This document shows positions 27,305 to 34,557 of a stretch of 64,000 bases of DNA, one piece after another (the first letter of the stretch is position 1; the number at the start of each line of letters is the position of its first letter). The translations under genes were made by a program, and so were the position numbers. The DNA is from Candidatus Peregrinibacteria bacterium (GTDB lineage Bacteria > Patescibacteriota > Gracilibacteria > UBA1369 > LOWO2-01-FULL-3): contig JAPLYN010000005.1 of NCBI GenBank assembly GCA_026395515.1, forward strand, positions 237,521 through 301,520, in the 5' to 3' direction. The notes below the pieces were generated by a model. It was not told the origin of the DNA, made no database searches, and worked only from the letters and a program-made list of their open reading frames with translations.

Positions 27305-28693
27305 TCAGTCCTTCCAAAACACTCCGCCTTTTCTTAATTCACCATCAGGATGAAGACTCAACAATGTACTACCCTGAGAAACACCATGCAAATCTACTAC
27401 CTCTGGATCATTTTGCATTGCGTCCACACCCTCAAAGTAAACCACAGCCTTTCCTCCAACCACGCCTTCATTCACCAATTCAGCCATTCTATTTCCAATC
27501 CTCAAACCCATAGTTTTATCGTAATAAGAAGGTCTTGTACCTCTAGCCTGACGAGTCTGAGTAGTAACATTCACCTTAGTCAAACCAGCAAATTGCTTTA
27601 AACCATCAGCAATTAGATCACTTACTTTACTATGTGAACCATTGGAATAATCCGTAGGAGTAAATCCCTCAGCAACTACTATTACACAACTACCGAATCT
27701 CTTTTTTCTTGCAAGAACTTCCTCCGCTATATCCTTCATTGACGCTGGCTTTTCTGGAATTAAAATAAGCATAATAGGACCCAATTCCTCTATTTTTCTT
27801 TTTAAATCCCTACCTTCATCTGCCACAGCCAAAGTATCATGACGCGCAGATTCAAAAGCTAGCCTACCGTAATTTCGCCCAAACACCTCCACCACATCCA
27901 CAGTGCCGTGGGCAAATGCACTCTGCGCAATATCATAAACTGCATGTCTATTTGCACGAACAGCAGTATTAAAACCAAGCATCTGAGTTGGTCTACCATC
28001 AAGCAACCCATCCCCATCAATACTTTTAAAAGTTCCCACTACACACTTTTCCGGAAAAGCTTTTGAGATTCTTTCCAACATCGCCAAACCTCCATTTCCA
28101 CCAGTTCCATAAACAGCACCAAAATCCCTCACATTATCCAAAACATTCTGAGCCTCATGATCGAAAGCATTCTTGCGAGAAGATCCAAAAGGAGTACTTC
28201 CGCGACCGACCATGTCAGCACGCATCAATGCATCAACCAAAATCAAATTATTATCAAAAAGGTCGGGAGGCAAAGCTAAACCTTCACTGGCATTTTGAAC
28301 ACCAAGCATCACTTTATCTTTTCTTAAACTTTGAGCAAACGAAGCCAAGCAATCAGATATTCCAGCACAATCACCACCTCCTGTGATACCTAAACAAGCA
28401 TTACCTCTATCCAACAATTTCAAAAGATCAGACTGAGAAAACTTGGATAAACTACCATCATACAAACCTCTTGAAACTGTATCTCTATCCCAACCCATCT
28501 GATTAAGAACACTCATCTTTGTAGAAGATAAACATTCAATCACTTCACCATCCAAAATTTGTGATAAAACAGCTCCTTCAATCCCACCATTAGTAGGAAG
28601 CACAAAATAAGGTTTCCTATCAGAATCAGGATCCAACCTCGTAGAAATAATATCACCAATCACCCTATCTCTATTTCCAGCCTCTCCTCCCAT
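27305..28693 (-). CDS. Divergent phosphofructokinase-family protein
   Basis: A 462-residue PFK-A fold protein, in size nearer to PPi-dependent enzymes. Recognisable blocks: FVLPTNGGIEGA (phosphate loop region), LGITGGGDCAGIS, YGTGGNGGLAML where canonical enzymes have GGDGS, TFKSIDGDGLLDG where canonical enzymes have PKTIDND, and VEVFGRNYGRLA where they have EVMGRxxGxLA. The Asp of GGDGS, a Mg-binding residue, is Asn here, and GGDDS of PPi enzymes is also absent. The catalytic Asp in the TID segment is kept. It may be an unusual phosphoryl-donor variant or a non-glycolytic relative. ATG 28693 is chosen; TTG 28702 is possible. Divergent from the aro promoter. Confidence 0.75.
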   Translation of the reverse strand: MGGEAGNRDRVIGDIISTRLDPDSDRKPYFVLPTNGGIEGAVLSQILDGEVIECLSSTKMSVLNQMGWDRDTVSRGLYDGSLSKFSQSDLLKLLDRGNACLGITGGGDCAGISDCLASFAQSLRKDKVMLGVQNASEGLALPPDLFDNNLILVDALMRADMVGRGSTPFGSSRKNAFDHEAQNVLDNVRDFGAVYGTGGNGGLAMLERISKAFPEKCVVGTFKSIDGDGLLDGRPTQMLGFNTAVRANRHAVYDIAQSAFAHGTVDVVEVFGRNYGRLAFESARHDTLAVADEGRDLKRKIEELGPIMLILIPEKPASMKDIAEEVLARKKRFGSCVIVVAEGFTPTDYSNGSHSKVSDLIADGLKQFAGLTKVNVTTQTRQARGTRPSYYDKTMGLRIGNRMAELVNEGVVGGKAVVYFEGVDAMQNDPEVVDLHGVSQGSTLLSLHPDGELRKGGVFWKD

Positions 28694-28712
28694 AGCTTTC
28701 AAATCTTAAAAA

Positions 28713-28741
28713 TTGACAAAGGCATTTTATCCAAATATTAT
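28713..28741 (+). promoter_or_regulatory. Promoter of the aromatic biosynthesis operon
   Basis: -35 TTGACA (28713-28718), 17-nt spacer, -10 TATTAT (28736-28741), predicted start near 28748, 16 nt before the leader-peptide ATG. It lies in the divergent gap next to the phosphofructokinase gene. Confidence 0.85.
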
Positions 28742-28763
28742 GAAGACACAACATAAAAATTTC

Positions 28764-28850
28764 ATGAGACAAGAAAGCCAAAAAATCCAGTCTCTCTCAA
28801 AAAACAACTCTTTTAACTGGGCTTTCTTTTACTTTTTAGCTAATTATTGA
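28764..28850 (+). CDS. Aromatic leader peptide of the shikimate operon
   Basis: A 28-codon ORF, ATG at 28764, TGA at 28848-28850. The first 16 residues are polar. The last twelve are FNWAFFYFLANY, with seven aromatic residues (four Phe, one Trp, two Tyr) at codons 17, 19, 21, 22, 23, 24 and 28. It lies between a strong promoter and an antiterminator/terminator pair, and its stop codon overlaps the antiterminator's 5' strand. The leader RNA also has a hairpin 28771-28779 with 28820-28828 that overlaps the aromatic codons. This matches the leader peptides of the enterobacterial pheA and trp attenuators in logic. No SD. Confidence 0.85.
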   Translation: MRQESQKIQSLSKNNSFNWAFFYFLANY

Positions 28851-28901
28851 GGCCTTTAGATTAATTCTAATATCTAAGCCTCAACAAGAGGCTATTTTTT
28901 T
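28847..28901 (+). promoter_or_regulatory. Transcription attenuator: antiterminator and terminator hairpins
   Basis: Antiterminator: TTGAGGC (28847-28853) with GCCTCAA (28878-28884) plus TTAGAT (28856-28861) with ATCTAA (28872-28877). Terminator: AGCCTC (28877-28882) with GAGGCT (28888-28893), then seven T (28895-28901). The two share 28877-28882 and exclude each other. A ribosome at the leader stop (28848-28850) would cover TTGAGGC and favour termination; one stalled on the aromatic codons at 28812-28835 would leave it free and favour read-through into the DAHP synthase gene. Confidence 0.85.
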
Positions 28902-28930
28902 ATTTCATCCATTTTCTAACCACAAAAAAC

Positions 28931-29944
28931 ATGATTATCGTAATGCAGGCCGGCGCACCAAAAGAAGAAGCTCTAAGAATCATTGAAGAACTTCAATCCA
29001 TTGGACTAACACCAATGCCTCTCTACGGCGTAGAACGCACTGTAATCGCAGTGATTGGTGAAGAAAGAGACTTGAGCATCGGACACCTCGAAGCCCTCCC
29101 AGGCGTAGAAAAAGTAATGCGTGTCGTTCACCCATACAAACTAGTAAGCAAAGAAACCAAACACGACCCAAGTATTATAGAAGTTAATGGCGTAAAAATT
29201 GGTAGCAATCAGCTGGCCATTATTGCCGGACCTTGCTCCGTAGAATCAGAAGAACAAATGGAAGAAGTCACTAGAGAACTATCTAAAGTCGGCGTAAAAA
29301 TTCTCCGCGGTGGCGCTTACAAACCTCGCACCGGTCCATACTCTTTCCAAGGTCTCGGTAAACCAGGACTAAAAATGATGCGCGAAGCCGCAGATCGTTA
29401 CGGCATGGCTACGATTACAGAAGTTCTAGACATTCGTGATCTCGACAATATCGCTGCACAAAGCGATATGATTCAAGTTGGTGCGCGCAACATGCAAAAT
29501 TTCGAACTATTAAAAGAACTCGGCAAAGTGAAAAAACCAGTTCTCTTAAAACGAGGACTCTCTGCAACTATTGAAGAACTACTTCTCGCCGCAGAATACA
29601 TTATGTCTCACGGCAATCCCCAAGTAATTCTCTGCGAACGCGGTATTCGTACATTCGAAACTGACACCCGCAATACTCTAGCTCTTGCTACCGTACCGCT
29701 CGTAAAGGAACTAAGCCACTTACCAATTCTAGTAGATCCATCTCATGCAACAGGTAAAAGATCATTATTGGAACCGATGAGCAAAGCCGCCATCGCTTGC
29801 GGTGCAGATGGAATTTGCATTGAAGTTCATCCAAATCCCGAGAAAGCTCTATCAGATGCACAACAACAAATTACCCCAGCTCGCTTCGCCGAAATGCTCG
29901 AAAGTTTGAAACCAATTATACAAGCGGTCGGAAAGACATTATAA
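28931..29944 (+). CDS. aroF: 3-deoxy-7-phosphoheptulonate synthase (type I beta, AroF)
   Basis: A 337-residue DAHP synthase, the first step of the shikimate pathway (PEP plus erythrose 4-phosphate). Residues 1-70 form the ferredoxin-like regulatory domain seen in the Thermotoga enzyme, where Tyr and Phe bind. The barrel has [10 protein letters not shown] (about 97-106), [17 protein letters not shown] (KPRTSP with Ser to Gly), [11 protein letters not shown] and DPSHATGKR. It is the first gene after the attenuator, so both transcription and enzyme activity are probably controlled by aromatic amino acids. aroB starts 9 nt later. Confidence 0.96.
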
Positions 29945-29953
29945 TCAGCGCAT

Positions 29954-30997
29954 ATGCCTATCATTCAAGCCAAACACAAGAAGGAAGTAGATGATTCTTA
30001 CAAAGTTTTCATTGAAAAAGGAGTAGTCAACAAATTACCAAGCCTTTTGAAAAAACTAAATCTCGGACAAAAGTATGCCATTATTACAGATTCAAGAACG
30101 GCAAAAATCCATGGATTAACTATTTCAAAGTTCCTTAACAAGAATGGAATTAAAAATGAAATTTTATCTTTCGAATCTGGCGAAAAATCCAAGACTTTAA
30201 GCTCAATTGAAGAACTTGCCGAATCTATGGTGGAAAAAGGTTTCAATCGCAAGGATGCAATTATTGCGCTTGGCGGAGGCGTTGTGGGAGATGTCGCAGG
30301 ATTTTTAGCCTCAATTTATTTACGCGGAATTCCTTTCGTTCAAATCCCTACCACTCTCTTGGCCATGGTTGATTCTGCCATTGGGGGAAAAACTGGTGTA
30401 GATCTAAAAATCGGAAAAAATCTATTAGGGACAATCACTCAACCAAAAGCAGTTTTTGTAGACATTAATTTACTCAAAACTTTACCGGAAAATCAGATCA
30501 GAAATGGACTCGGAGAAATTATAAAATACGGCATCATTAAAGATGAAAAATTCTTCTCATATTTAGAAAAAAATCTCTCAAAAGTTTTTAAACACGATGA
30601 AAAAGTTCTCAATTATATTATCCAAAAATCAATCGCCATAAAAGTAGAGGTAGTAGAAAACGATGAGAAGGAAGCCAAAAATCGCATGTTGCTAAACTAC
30701 GGCCACACCTACGGCCACGCTTTAGAAACAATGTCTAACTACACATTACTTCATGGCTATGCCATCAGTATTGGAATGGTAATCGCCAATGAAATGGCTA
30801 TAGAAAAAAAACTTTTAAAACAAAAAGATGCCGACAGAATCAAAGCTCTATTAGAAAAAGCTGGATTACCAGTTTACAGCATGAATAAGCCAACAATGAA
30901 AGATTTAATGACTGACAAGAAGAGTGACGGTAAATCTATTAATTTCATTTTGCCAACAAAAATTGGCAACGCAATTATTTATAATCAAAAAATTTAA
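29954..30997 (+). CDS. aroB: 3-dehydroquinate synthase
   Basis: A 347-residue AroB, step two of the shikimate pathway: an NAD- and zinc-dependent cyclisation of DAHP. Motifs: ESGEKSKT, ALGGGVVGDVAGFLAS (NAD loop, about 99-114), PTTLLAMVDSAIGGKTGVD, and the zinc ligands in IKYGII, NYGHTYGHALE (two His) and LLHGYAISIGM. Normal length. It follows the DAHP synthase gene by 9 nt, in one operon, without an SD. Confidence 0.96.
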   Translation: MPIIQAKHKKEVDDSYKVFIEKGVVNKLPSLLKKLNLGQKYAIITDSRTAKIHGLTISKFLNKNGIKNEILSFESGEKSKTLSSIEELAESMVEKGFNRKDAIIALGGGVVGDVAGFLASIYLRGIPFVQIPTTLLAMVDSAIGGKTGVDLKIGKNLLGTITQPKAVFVDINLLKTLPENQIRNGLGEIIKYGIIKDEKFFSYLEKNLSKVFKHDEKVLNYIIQKSIAIKVEVVENDEKEAKNRMLLNYGHTYGHALETMSNYTLLHGYAISIGMVIANEMAIEKKLLKQKDADRIKALLEKAGLPVYSMNKPTMKDLMTDKKSDGKSINFILPTKIGNAIIYNQKI

Positions 30998-31007
30998 CTT
31001 AAACACC

Positions 31008-31187
31008 ATGAATCCATATCTCCGTGAAGCTCTAGCAGAATTAACAAAAGCTGGTGCTGAAAAATTACCAAGAATAGAAACTGTAGAAGCCGCAGCAAAC
31101 GGCAAAACTTTCAGCGGCAAAAAAGCTGATGGCAGTCTCTGGGTTTTGAAAAAGAACAACGAAGACAGCTATAGCGTTCAGTGCTAA
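31008..31187 (+). CDS. Small unknown protein, 59 residues
   Basis: Starts at ATG 31008, 10 nt after aroB, within the aro operon. The N-terminal half is helical (NPYLREALAELTKAGAEKLP), the C-terminal half polar with strand potential (GKTFSGKKADGSLWVLKKNN) and a Cys as last residue. No signal peptide or membrane helix and no known family. An upstream in-frame ATG would overlap aroB by 75 nt and has no support. The operon position hints at, but does not show, a role in aromatic metabolism. Confidence 0.6.
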   Translation: MNPYLREALAELTKAGAEKLPRIETVEAAANGKTFSGKKADGSLWVLKKNNEDSYSVQC

Positions 31188-31203: not shown

Positions 31204-32769
31204 ATGAAAAAATTTCTTACTATAACAGGTTTATTTTTAGTTTTAGCTGGATGTTCAAATAAAGCAGTACAACAACCGATTATTTCAAATTCATCAGCTA
31301 ATTACCACGAAATTGAAACGACACTGACTAGTGCAGTAGTAGACGATCTAAATCCGATCAAACAAATTCAGCAAGAAAAAGAAAATTTAATTAAAAATGG
31401 ACAGTCTTTTTGGTTCGATGAAAAGAAAGTCTCACCTTATAAAGAGGAAATGTATTACCTACAATACTTATCCAACGAAGTAAAAGGATATAAAGATCAC
31501 TTCCCACCAAAATTCAAAATGGGAACTTGTGATAATGATGGTTGGTGCAAAATAATTTCACCGGAGATTCCAAAAAAGATATTAGCCATAAGTTCTAAAA
31601 ACACAGCAAATACAGAATTTTATGCTAGCTCAAATGGAGAGTTCTACACCTTTCACGAAAAAAATATTTATGGTTCTTCAGAAGTTCTTACAGATATTTA
31701 TGAAAATGATAAGATATTATTCAGTAAAAAAATGGAATTTGGAGCCAGTGGCCCAATTCTAAATCAAACAATTATTAATGACAGCCCCTCATTTACCTTT
31801 CGTGAACCAGGACCTGTTGAAAACACATTCTACAAAGGAGAAACCATGAACGAAAAATACAAAGTAGATGACAGCGAAAATCTTTTTGTAGTGAATGGGA
31901 AAATTGGATTTGTAGCCACAGTAAATGGCAAAAAGTTTATTATGTACGATGGAAAAAAAGTTTCACAAGACTTTGATGAAATCCGAACACATGCTTGCTG
32001 TGCCATCTCTGCCTATCCTTTTGAAATAGACCAAAATGGCACTCTCTCACTTCTAGCAAAACGTGGAGAAAAATATTATTTAGTGGAAATAAAGCTAGCA
32101 TTAGAAACCCAATCACCAAGTGAAACCACTACACCAACTATCAACCAAACACCACAAACTTCTTACGAGAATAAAGAACTTGGGATAAAATTTACACCAT
32201 ATTGGGATGGAATTTATGCAGGAACATTTGAACAACAAGAAAATAAAATTGTTTTTAAAGATCCAATGGTAAAAGATTTAGCTCAAGCCAAAGAAAATGG
32301 CTACAAAGCACCATTTATTCAAGTCTTCACTAAACCAAAAGATCAAAAAATAGACGATGCAATTCTCGACGTAATTAAAAAGGAGAACAAAGACTCCAGT
32401 AAATGCAAAGTCATTGATTATGGACAATATTGGGCAAAGAATTCTTTCGAGAATTACTCTTTAGATCTAGTAAATCAAAAAATTATTTACACAAAAGACG
32501 AAGAAAAAGAAATCAAACAAGCCGATATAGATTCAAAAAAAGATGGTGGTCCATTTGATGGAGAATGGCAAAAGGCAGAGATTTACAGAAAAAGATTAGT
32601 AAGCGAATGTTCTCCTTATGCAGATAGCCTTAAACCAGGTGGAACTTCTAAAACAATGCCAAGCATTTTCCTCTATGATGAAAAGACCTCGAACACTAAA
32701 TTTATTTTCATTCCTGGATCAGCAGATCCATACTTTTTCAAAGAAGATAGTTTGGAAATTTTAAAATAA
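31204..32769 (+). CDS. Large lipoprotein of unknown function
   Basis: A 521-residue lipoprotein with signal MKKFLTITGLFLVLAGC (lipobox LAGC, Cys 17). The mature part is beta-rich with many Tyr, Phe and Lys. A Ser/Thr/Pro linker at about 305-325 divides an N-terminal domain, containing GTCDNDGWCKII and HACCAIS (four cysteines), from a C-terminal one starting ENKELGIKFTPYWDGIY. The latter has Cys in SSKCKVIDY and VSECSPY. No recognised family. It lies inside the aro operon with 1 nt before aroA, an odd location for a surface lipoprotein. Confidence 0.7.
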   Translation: MKKFLTITGLFLVLAGCSNKAVQQPIISNSSANYHEIETTLTSAVVDDLNPIKQIQQEKENLIKNGQSFWFDEKKVSPYKEEMYYLQYLSNEVKGYKDHFPPKFKMGTCDNDGWCKIISPEIPKKILAISSKNTANTEFYASSNGEFYTFHEKNIYGSSEVLTDIYENDKILFSKKMEFGASGPILNQTIINDSPSFTFREPGPVENTFYKGETMNEKYKVDDSENLFVVNGKIGFVATVNGKKFIMYDGKKVSQDFDEIRTHACCAISAYPFEIDQNGTLSLLAKRGEKYYLVEIKLALETQSPSETTTPTINQTPQTSYENKELGIKFTPYWDGIYAGTFEQQENKIVFKDPMVKDLAQAKENGYKAPFIQVFTKPKDQKIDDAILDVIKKENKDSSKCKVIDYGQYWAKNSFENYSLDLVNQKIIYTKDEEKEIKQADIDSKKDGGPFDGEWQKAEIYRKRLVSECSPYADSLKPGGTSKTMPSIFLYDEKTSNTKFIFIPGSADPYFFKEDSLEILK

Positions 32770-32770
32770 A

Positions 32771-34039
32771 ATGGCTATAAAAAAAATAAACATTCCAGGC
32801 TCAAAAAGTCATAGCAATCGAGCAATAATTCTCGCAGTTTTGAGCAGCGAAACAACAATTTTAAAGAATATAGCAATTTGCGATGATACGAATTACTTAA
32901 TCGCAAATCTAAAAAAACTAGGCATAAAAATTCAACAAAAAAATAGCACCGTAAAAATCACGGGAGTTTATGAAAAAGGTAAATTAAATTTCCCTAAACA
33001 CGAAGGAACAATAAACTTCTTTACTGGCAACGCAGGCACCACAACACGCTTTCTCACAGCTCTTTCCACTCTAACAGAAAACAATATTATCATAGATGGC
33101 GACTCGCGTATGCGCGAACGCCCAATCTCAGAACTCACAAAAACTCTAAATAAACTTGGCGCAAAAATTGAGACTAAAAATTATTGTCCTCCAGTTCAAA
33201 TTTCCCCACAAACTTTAAAAGGTGGAGAAGTAAATCTCCCTGGTAATATTAGCAGCCAATATCTATCTGCACTTTTAATGGTCTCACCATTCTCAGATAA
33301 AAAAACTATTATCAACATCACCGAAGATCTCTGTTCTAAGCCATATATCGCCATGACTATTAATGTCATGAATAAATTCGGACTCAAAGTAGTCAACAAA
33401 AATTTCAAAAAATTCACAATAATTCCAAAACAAAAACCAAAAACTCCTAAAACTTATATTATAGAAAGCGACGCATCCTCCGCTTCATATTTTGGTGCTT
33501 TTGCCGCAATTTATTCACAAAAAATTCTTCTTCAAAATATTCACCAAAATTCTCTCCAAGGAGACATCAAATTCCTGAAATATCTGCAGAAAATGGGCTG
33601 CAAAATAAAGAAAAATAAATTTGGGACAATAATTGAAGGACCAAAAGTTCTCAAGTCTCTTGGCACCATAGACATGAACGAAACTCCAGATCTAGTAATG
33701 ACTTTTGCCATCACCTCTTTGTTTACAAAAGGCAGCACGAAAATAACAAATATAGCCAATTTACGCATTAAAGAAACTGATCGTCTTCAAGCCTTAGAAA
33801 ATGAATTAAAAAAATTAGGAGCAACAGTAAAAACAGGCAAAGATTGGATAGAAATTAATGAACTAAAAAAAGTTGAAAATAAAAAATTGATCAAAATTTC
33901 CACTTACAATGATCATCGTATTGCCATGTCCTTTGGCATTCTCACCTCCATAATTAAAAACCTAAAAATCGAAAATCCATCCTGCGTCTCCAAGAGCTAC
34001 CCTGCATTTTGGCAAGATCTTAAAAAAGTTCAAAAATGA
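32771..34039 (+). CDS. aroA: 3-phosphoshikimate 1-carboxyvinyltransferase (EPSP synthase)
   Basis: A 422-residue EPSP synthase, step six of the shikimate pathway. Motifs: IPGSKSHSNRAIILA (shikimate-3-phosphate and PEP-binding Lys), FTGNAGTTTRFLTAL, DGDSRMRERPI, SSQYLSALLM, ETPDLVMTFAI (catalytic Asp), RIKETDRLQALENEL and YNDHRIAMSFGI. Cytoplasmic, normal length. Its TGA overlaps the aroK start as ATGA, so the two are translationally coupled. Confidence 0.96.
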   Translation: MAIKKINIPGSKSHSNRAIILAVLSSETTILKNIAICDDTNYLIANLKKLGIKIQQKNSTVKITGVYEKGKLNFPKHEGTINFFTGNAGTTTRFLTALSTLTENNIIIDGDSRMRERPISELTKTLNKLGAKIETKNYCPPVQISPQTLKGGEVNLPGNISSQYLSALLMVSPFSDKKTIINITEDLCSKPYIAMTINVMNKFGLKVVNKNFKKFTIIPKQKPKTPKTYIIESDASSASYFGAFAAIYSQKILLQNIHQNSLQGDIKFLKYLQKMGCKIKKNKFGTIIEGPKVLKSLGTIDMNETPDLVMTFAITSLFTKGSTKITNIANLRIKETDRLQALENELKKLGATVKTGKDWIEINELKKVENKKLIKISTYNDHRIAMSFGILTSIIKNLKIENPSCVSKSYPAFWQDLKKVQK

Positions 34040-34557
34040 ATATAATACTAACCGGCCTTCGTGGCAGCGGTAAAAGCAAAATAGGCTCAATACTTGCACT
34101 AAAATTGGAAATGAATTTTGTCGACATTGATGAAGAAATAGTAAAAGAAGAAAAGAAAAAAATTCCAGAAATAATAGACTCTCGCGGCTGGGAATATTTC
34201 CGCGCCTTAGAATCCAAAGTTGCACAAAAAATAGCCGAATTAAAAAACACTGTCATTTCAACCGGTGGCGGTACCATCCTCGACCAAGAAAACGAAAAAG
34301 AATTCAAAAAAAATGGCAAAATCATTTATCTCTACGTGAAACCTGAAATCGCCGCATCCCGCATTCTCAAGGACAAAAACCGACCTCCTCTCACCAACAA
34401 AGAATCCGTAGAAGAAGAAATGAAACAAATTTACAAAGAAAGAAATGGCCGCTATTGCGAAAGCGCCAGCATCATCTTCGAGCGCAGCGAAAACATTGAA
34501 AAAGACTGCGAAGAAATTATTGCTCTCCTTTTTCCCCTTCTTCACATCGAGCTCTAA
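34036..34557 (+). CDS. aroK: Shikimate kinase
   Basis: A 173-residue P-loop kinase, step five of the pathway. Walker A GLRGSGKSKIGSILA (residues 7-21), shikimate-binding DIDEEI (about 34) and RGWEYFRALES, STGGGTIL (about 75), lid KNRPPL. Last gene of the operon. The operon thus has steps 1, 2, 5 and 6; dehydroquinase (aroD/aroQ), aroE and aroC are not in the window. Its last 41 nt overlap the end of the opposite-strand trhP-like gene. Confidence 0.94.
   Translation: MNIILTGLRGSGKSKIGSILALKLEMNFVDIDEEIVKEEKKKIPEIIDSRGWEYFRALESKVAQKIAELKNTVISTGGGTILDQENEKEFKKNGKIIYLYVKPEIAASRILKDKNRPPLTNKESVEEEMKQIYKERNGRYCESASIIFERSENIEKDCEEIIALLFPLLHIEL

Follow-up and report, generated by a model that had tools for sequence, protein, structure and literature searches.

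Upstream of aroF, the DAHP synthase gene that opens the shikimate operon of this genome, lie a promoter, a short aromatic-rich open reading frame (ORF) and a set of overlapping hairpins. Does this region regulate the operon, and if so, how? The original prediction took it for an attenuator responding to aromatic amino acids, and on following it up within the 64,000-nucleotide stretch of DNA analysed here (the window) and in relatives, we find that interpretation largely right. Judging from sequence comparison, we consider it very likely that the region is a ribosome-mediated transcription attenuator of aroF-aroB-aroA-aroK.

Architecture of the aroF leader

The promoter, 28-codon ORF, antiterminator, terminator and DAHP synthase gene on which that interpretation was built were all found, with coordinates unchanged (Table 1). 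The promoter matches the consensus at 11 of 12 positions, is the top match in 2.5 kb and is kept in the sister species. Translation most likely starts at 28764, because the other in-frame ATG (28740) overlaps the −10 box, and the ORF ends with a TGA at 28848–28850. No Shine-Dalgarno (SD) sequence precedes the leader, nor was an SD-like 4-mer found at −18 to −4 in any of the 34 window genes of at least 180 aa. The 3′ end of the 16S RNA retains the anti-SD sequence (GGATCACCTCCTTT) despite these SD-less genes. The upstream phosphofructokinase-like gene (27305–28702) is divergent, which assigns the terminator to the transcript of aroF.

Table 1 Features of the aroF leader and the operon downstream, in window coordinates.
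Feature	Position	Strand	Remarks
Sigma-70-type promoter, TTGACA-17 nt-TATTAT	28713–28741	+	TTGACA 28713–28718, TATTAT 28736–28741
Leader peptide ORF, 28 codons, MRQESQKIQSLSKNNSFNWAFFYFLANY then stop	28764–28850	+	Aromatic run kept in 37 loci
Intra-leader hairpin, candidate RNA polymerase pause hairpin	28771–28828	+	28771–28779 pairs with 28820–28828, 9 bp
Putative control codons F-N-W-A-F-F-Y-F	28812–28835	+	Geometry based on the usual ribosome footprint
Antiterminator	28847–28884	+	Arms 28847–28861 and 28872–28884, 13 bp, one bulge
Intrinsic terminator	28877–28901	+	AGCCTC/GAGGCT 6-bp stem 28877–28893, T7 28895–28901
aroF, DAHP synthase with ferredoxin-like regulatory domain (PF18152)	28931–29944	+	ATG at 28931
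aroB, 3-dehydroquinate synthase	29954–30997	+	
59-aa ORF, no family	31008–31187	+	Also in G002 and G003
521-aa putative lipoprotein, within operon	31204–32769	+	Lipobox-like LAGC by eye
aroA, EPSP synthase	32771–34039	+	
aroK, shikimate kinase	34036–34557	+	

The antiterminator begins at the leader stop codon and overlaps the terminator, which stands between the leader ORF and aroF, the first structural gene. The two helices are mutually exclusive, as had been proposed, and fold at −10.1 kcal/mol (antiterminator, z −2.8) and −9.6 kcal/mol (terminator stem, z −3.9). The shortness of the terminator stem (6 bp) counts against reading it as part of an attenuator. The predicted overlap of the TGA with the antiterminator is present in the window sequence, but it hinges, together with the C-terminal LANY, on a run of five T (~28833–28838). 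In the sister species (G002) the run is six T long, and the leader ends in FYFFS and a stop a few nucleotides earlier; the leaders of G001 and of G003, a genome of the same genus as ours, likewise stop ahead of the helix. The five-T run could conceivably be a sequencing slip, which would leave the aromatic run unaffected. The terminal Tyr of the window leader is not conserved in relatives.

A further hairpin, within the leader, pairs the first codons of the ORF with the Trp-Ala-Phe codons. It is conserved in many relatives and absent from the short leaders of families f2, f15 and f16. Permuting its arms gave 0/20,000 with one genome per genus and a weaker 129/20,000 with one per family. It probably makes RNA polymerase pause, giving the ribosome time to catch up. 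Unlike the 1:2 hairpin of E. coli trp, which shares segment 2 with the antiterminator, this 5′ hairpin joins the beginning of the ORF to the control codons and falls outside the antiterminator arm. No hairpin sequestering that arm in the untranslated leader was found at the site; untranslated RNA should therefore read through, which differs from E. coli trp.

Because untranslated RNA folds into the antiterminator, a ligand could in principle throw the switch, and the hairpins might then constitute a riboswitch, T-box or protein-binding leader that senses an amino acid or tRNA without translation, the ORF being incidental. We regard this as highly improbable. In searches at gathering and permissive thresholds, no Rfam family scored at or above its cutoff, the covariance models of amino-acid operon leaders (e.g., Trp_leader RF00513) and T-boxes included; the matches returned were all at chance level, on the opposite strand, with E up to 5. 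Moreover, what is conserved is the aromatic codon run with its stop at the antiterminator edge, while the helix sequences vary freely with pairing retained.

Promoter-like and terminator-like sites each occur at chance frequency in this region and singly prove little; the combination of leader parts is beyond chance. Our detector scored short ORFs that end in aromatic codons at the foot of a terminator-overlapping antiterminator; stricter variants (six T in eight) missed true cases, and the rule was relaxed and the misses inspected by eye. The window site scored 37.0, whereas the 99.9% quantile over 5,800 shuffles of upstream regions from the order was 26.0, and none of 100 dinucleotide shuffles made from the region upstream of this aroF scored as high. 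It was also the top score in the window on both strands, followed by a runner-up at 30.8.

Conservation and co-variation among relatives

A search of 89 genomes of the order turned up aroF in 58. Sixty aroF loci were read, and exclusion of four paralogues outside the aroF-aroB-aroA-aroK operon and two loci without upstream sequence left 54. An aromatic leader precedes aroF at 37 of these shikimate-operon loci (25 above the 99.9% shuffle quantile, two just below it, G005 and G027, and ten by inspection). The expectation that orthologous loci would conserve the leader codons and both helices was borne out across 10 families and 30 genera. Examples from the order are MRKHSFNFWAYFYPLA, MNNRIKNTFFYFYFFAD, MQKVSKQLVGQFWAYFYFTLKA and MITERSQLELKNFQADWGFFYFYF, each followed by a stop. 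The leader is missing at the other 17 loci, mainly in family f8 and through deletions in f1; it seems deleted in G007, G017 and G018, and the promoter is retained in G007 and G018. The four excluded paralogues (G021b, G035b, G085, G086b) lack the device. In five loci of f8 and f14 (L162, L163, L164, L165, L168), which have no attenuator, the aroF alignments start only at query residue 65–80, so the regulatory domain may be missing from their DAHP synthases.

Outside the order, leaders of this kind are also present in further orders of the class (G217, G338, G340, G346, G255) and in other patescibacterial classes (G406, MNTHNPAQTYFGFYFYWNLTGK then stop; G370, MQNSSHNFYFYFYFTNPGGARG then stop; G363; G637). 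Genomes of f49, from another class of the phylum, have the same arrangement when read by eye. Aromatic leaders with terminators upstream of aroF were also seen in other phyla, in Mesoaciditoga (L065, detector score 42.1), Desulforhabdus (L081, 39.3) and Bryobacteraceae (L097, 39.4), with another high-scoring case in Deferribacteraceae (L080). By sequence, these four look like candidate aroF attenuators.

Phe, Trp and Tyr codons had all been proposed as the signal. Phe and Tyr codons are near-universal (36/37 and 37/37 leaders), but Trp codons occur in just 27/37, the remaining ten leaders having none. Within families, similar residues surround the aromatic run (W-A-F-F-Y-F), which would also fit control by translation or by sensing of the peptide itself (an arrest peptide) instead of codon-specific stalling and termination. 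Between families, however, the peptides diverge (FWAYFYF, FYFFYAINQS, YFNYFFK) and have aromatic codons alone in common. The W-A-F likeness is explained in part by the intra-leader hairpin, which uses GGGCUUUC, and a terminator with a T-run is nearly always present. We rate control by translation or peptide sensing as slightly less probable even than a ligand-sensing leader.

Both helices are conserved with co-variation in orthologues, as in the attenuator class. In 31 leaders with automatic arm assignment, the 5′ arm of the antiterminator has a median start of −3 nt relative to the stop codon (range −27 to +8). In 30 of these leaders, the complete fold exceeds the terminator alone in stability. 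The shared terminator bases pair both ways in these leaders, with several different triplets, and the arm sequences vary by family (GCCTC, CCTCATGC, CTCCTCTGC, CTCCCTC, AACTTTC). Antiterminator arms pair better with their own partners, at a summed duplex energy of −317 kcal/mol versus −219 ± 12 (sd) kcal/mol for swapped arms (0/20,000 permutations). The permutation result was again 0/20,000 with one genome per genus and 5/20,000 with one per family; it is not circular, because the best duplex is searched for anew in the null. Some single loci do not beat their swaps (e.g., G025, G033, G035, G055), partly because the arms were cut mechanically.

A plain constitutive leader would require only a weak terminator and a random ORF, aromatic since TTT, TTC and TAC are common in AT-rich DNA; the region is indeed AT-rich, and its motifs are at chance level singly. 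The shuffles, the whole-window scan and the permutation tests nevertheless all speak against this explanation, the least probable of those considered, and the comparative data already refute it, barring a bias common to all tests.

Proposed mechanism and known systems

We infer translation, pausing, stalling and termination, and which tRNA would matter most, from the layout of the attenuator. RNA polymerase would start near 28748, and a ribosome would translate the leader while the intra-leader hairpin pauses the polymerase until the ribosome catches up. When charged tRNA-Phe, tRNA-Tyr or tRNA-Trp is scarce, the ribosome would stall within 28812–28835, leaving the RNA from 28847 free to form the antiterminator, whose 3′ arm would capture the 5′ half of the terminator and allow transcription to run on into aroF. 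When these charged tRNAs are plentiful, the ribosome would reach the stop codon and cover the 5′ antiterminator arm, and the terminator would end transcription. A ribosome usually covers about 15 nt ahead of its P site. With its A site at any codon from Phe17 to Phe24 it should therefore reach at most ~28845, leaving the antiterminator free, while at Tyr28 or the stop it should cover the 5′ arm; stalling in the control codons should thus open the operon and normal passage close it. The stall window originally proposed, 28812–28847, is accordingly sound for its larger part but should exclude Tyr28 (28845–28847), where a stall would cover the antiterminator and favour termination.

The nearest precedent appears to be the aroR-aroF attenuator of C. 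glutamicum, in which a Phe-Tyr-Phe leader peptide precedes a DAHP synthase operon. A ribosome stall on that leader raises transcription (Neshat et al. 2014, as given in PMC11802643; also PMC4046766), and the system responds to Phe, not Tyr (PMC11802643). The likeness is one of arrangement: C. glutamicum belongs to another phylum, the aromatic run of the window leader is longer and includes Trp, and many relatives of the window genome carry a second mini-ORF. With E. coli trp and pheA, the window leader shares control codons, a stop codon where the antiterminator begins, an antiterminator and a terminator that exclude each other, and a candidate pause hairpin. It differs from them in combining three aromatic residues in one peptide and in preceding the common trunk of the pathway. 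For E. coli aroF-tyrA, it is a literature suggestion only that an aromatic aminoacyl-tRNA attenuates this DAHP synthase operon; PMC2659441 lists it as an 'attenuator sensing tyr-tRNA', citing Camakaris 1980. Repression of aroF in E. coli works through transcriptional regulators such as TyrR (PMC11802643).

Among open-licence papers, our search found none linking Patescibacteria or the candidate phyla radiation to attenuators and leader peptides, and none linking Gracilibacteria to transcription attenuation. By comparative evidence, the device appears to be a conserved attenuator of the known trp/pheA type in a phylum where we found none described. Patescibacteria, with their reduced genomes, are often pictured as poor in regulation. 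A lineage that retains the shikimate pathway would here also retain a classical sensor of tRNA charging, and such a sensor in an SD-less genome window would imply that these uncultured cells couple transcription to translation. The attenuator is compact, and a reporter in a laboratory host could test it directly.

A second mini-ORF and other aromatic genes

Many relatives carry a second ATG-initiated ORF after the terminator, ending 19–58 nt before aroF. This mini-ORF 2 is present at 22 of 27 loci with room for it, against 3.0 expected from shuffles (0/20,000 simulations), among them L119 (G025), L122 (G006), L128 (G022), L148 (G038) and L155 (G088). Its C-termini include AYRY, AYRN, SYQN, YLYRR and CLYRR. 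A C-terminal [ASCLY][YF][RQ], CLY or LY-end motif occurs at 18 loci versus 0.1 expected (0/20,000), an optimistic figure, as the motif was picked after viewing the sequences. Codons vary inside the motif (TAT/TAC, CGA/CGC/AGA), so its conservation points to the peptide. Mini-ORF 2 also lies between tyrA and aroF in f30 (MKTLTSGHSSQAQPPNKHCLFSSTAAANNSYLWLYRR then stop), with no visible attenuator, and, read by eye, in G406 from another class (ending YQAYRLKRNAYRS then stop); it is absent from the genus of the window genome and several others.

The sister family f34 (L184, L185, L186, L193) has a Tyr-rich mini-ORF just before aroF, e.g., MHFNKFGYYRFY followed by a stop, whose TATTAC Tyr codons pair with a GTAATA immediately before the gene. 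The arrangement resembles a translational attenuator, a second level beneath the transcriptional one. Within the window's order, no conserved fold joining mini-ORF 2 to the aroF start was found. We tentatively propose, at a little less than an even chance, that Patescibacteria making aromatic amino acids place DAHP synthase under two-tier leader control, the attenuator being followed by a mini-ORF 2 that would govern aroF translation through a Tyr-linked stall or nascent-peptide signal, with the genus of the window genome lacking the second tier.

The operon downstream has aroF, aroB, aroA and aroK in the predicted order, but aroB and aroA are separated by the 59-aa ORF and the gene for the 521-aa putative lipoprotein. 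The latter was found in the window species alone and has no Pfam or NCBIfam match. aroC lies 1.3 kb past the window end (C6:302824), and the start of contig C6 encodes tyrA and pheA domains in a single frame.

The trp operon, on contig C4, contains trpE, a glutamine amidotransferase gene, a fused trpD-trpC, trpB and trpA. No attenuator or aromatic leader was seen by eye before trpE. Instead, the operon opens, immediately before trpE, with a gene for a TrpR-family repressor (PF01371, E 1.9e-23; L175 3353–3613, G000:C4). One peptide with codons for all three end products had been thought to suit control of the common trunk pathway, and the leader does hold codons for all three; because the trp genes come with a TrpR-type repressor gene of their own, however, the leader peptide is not the genome's sole aromatic control.
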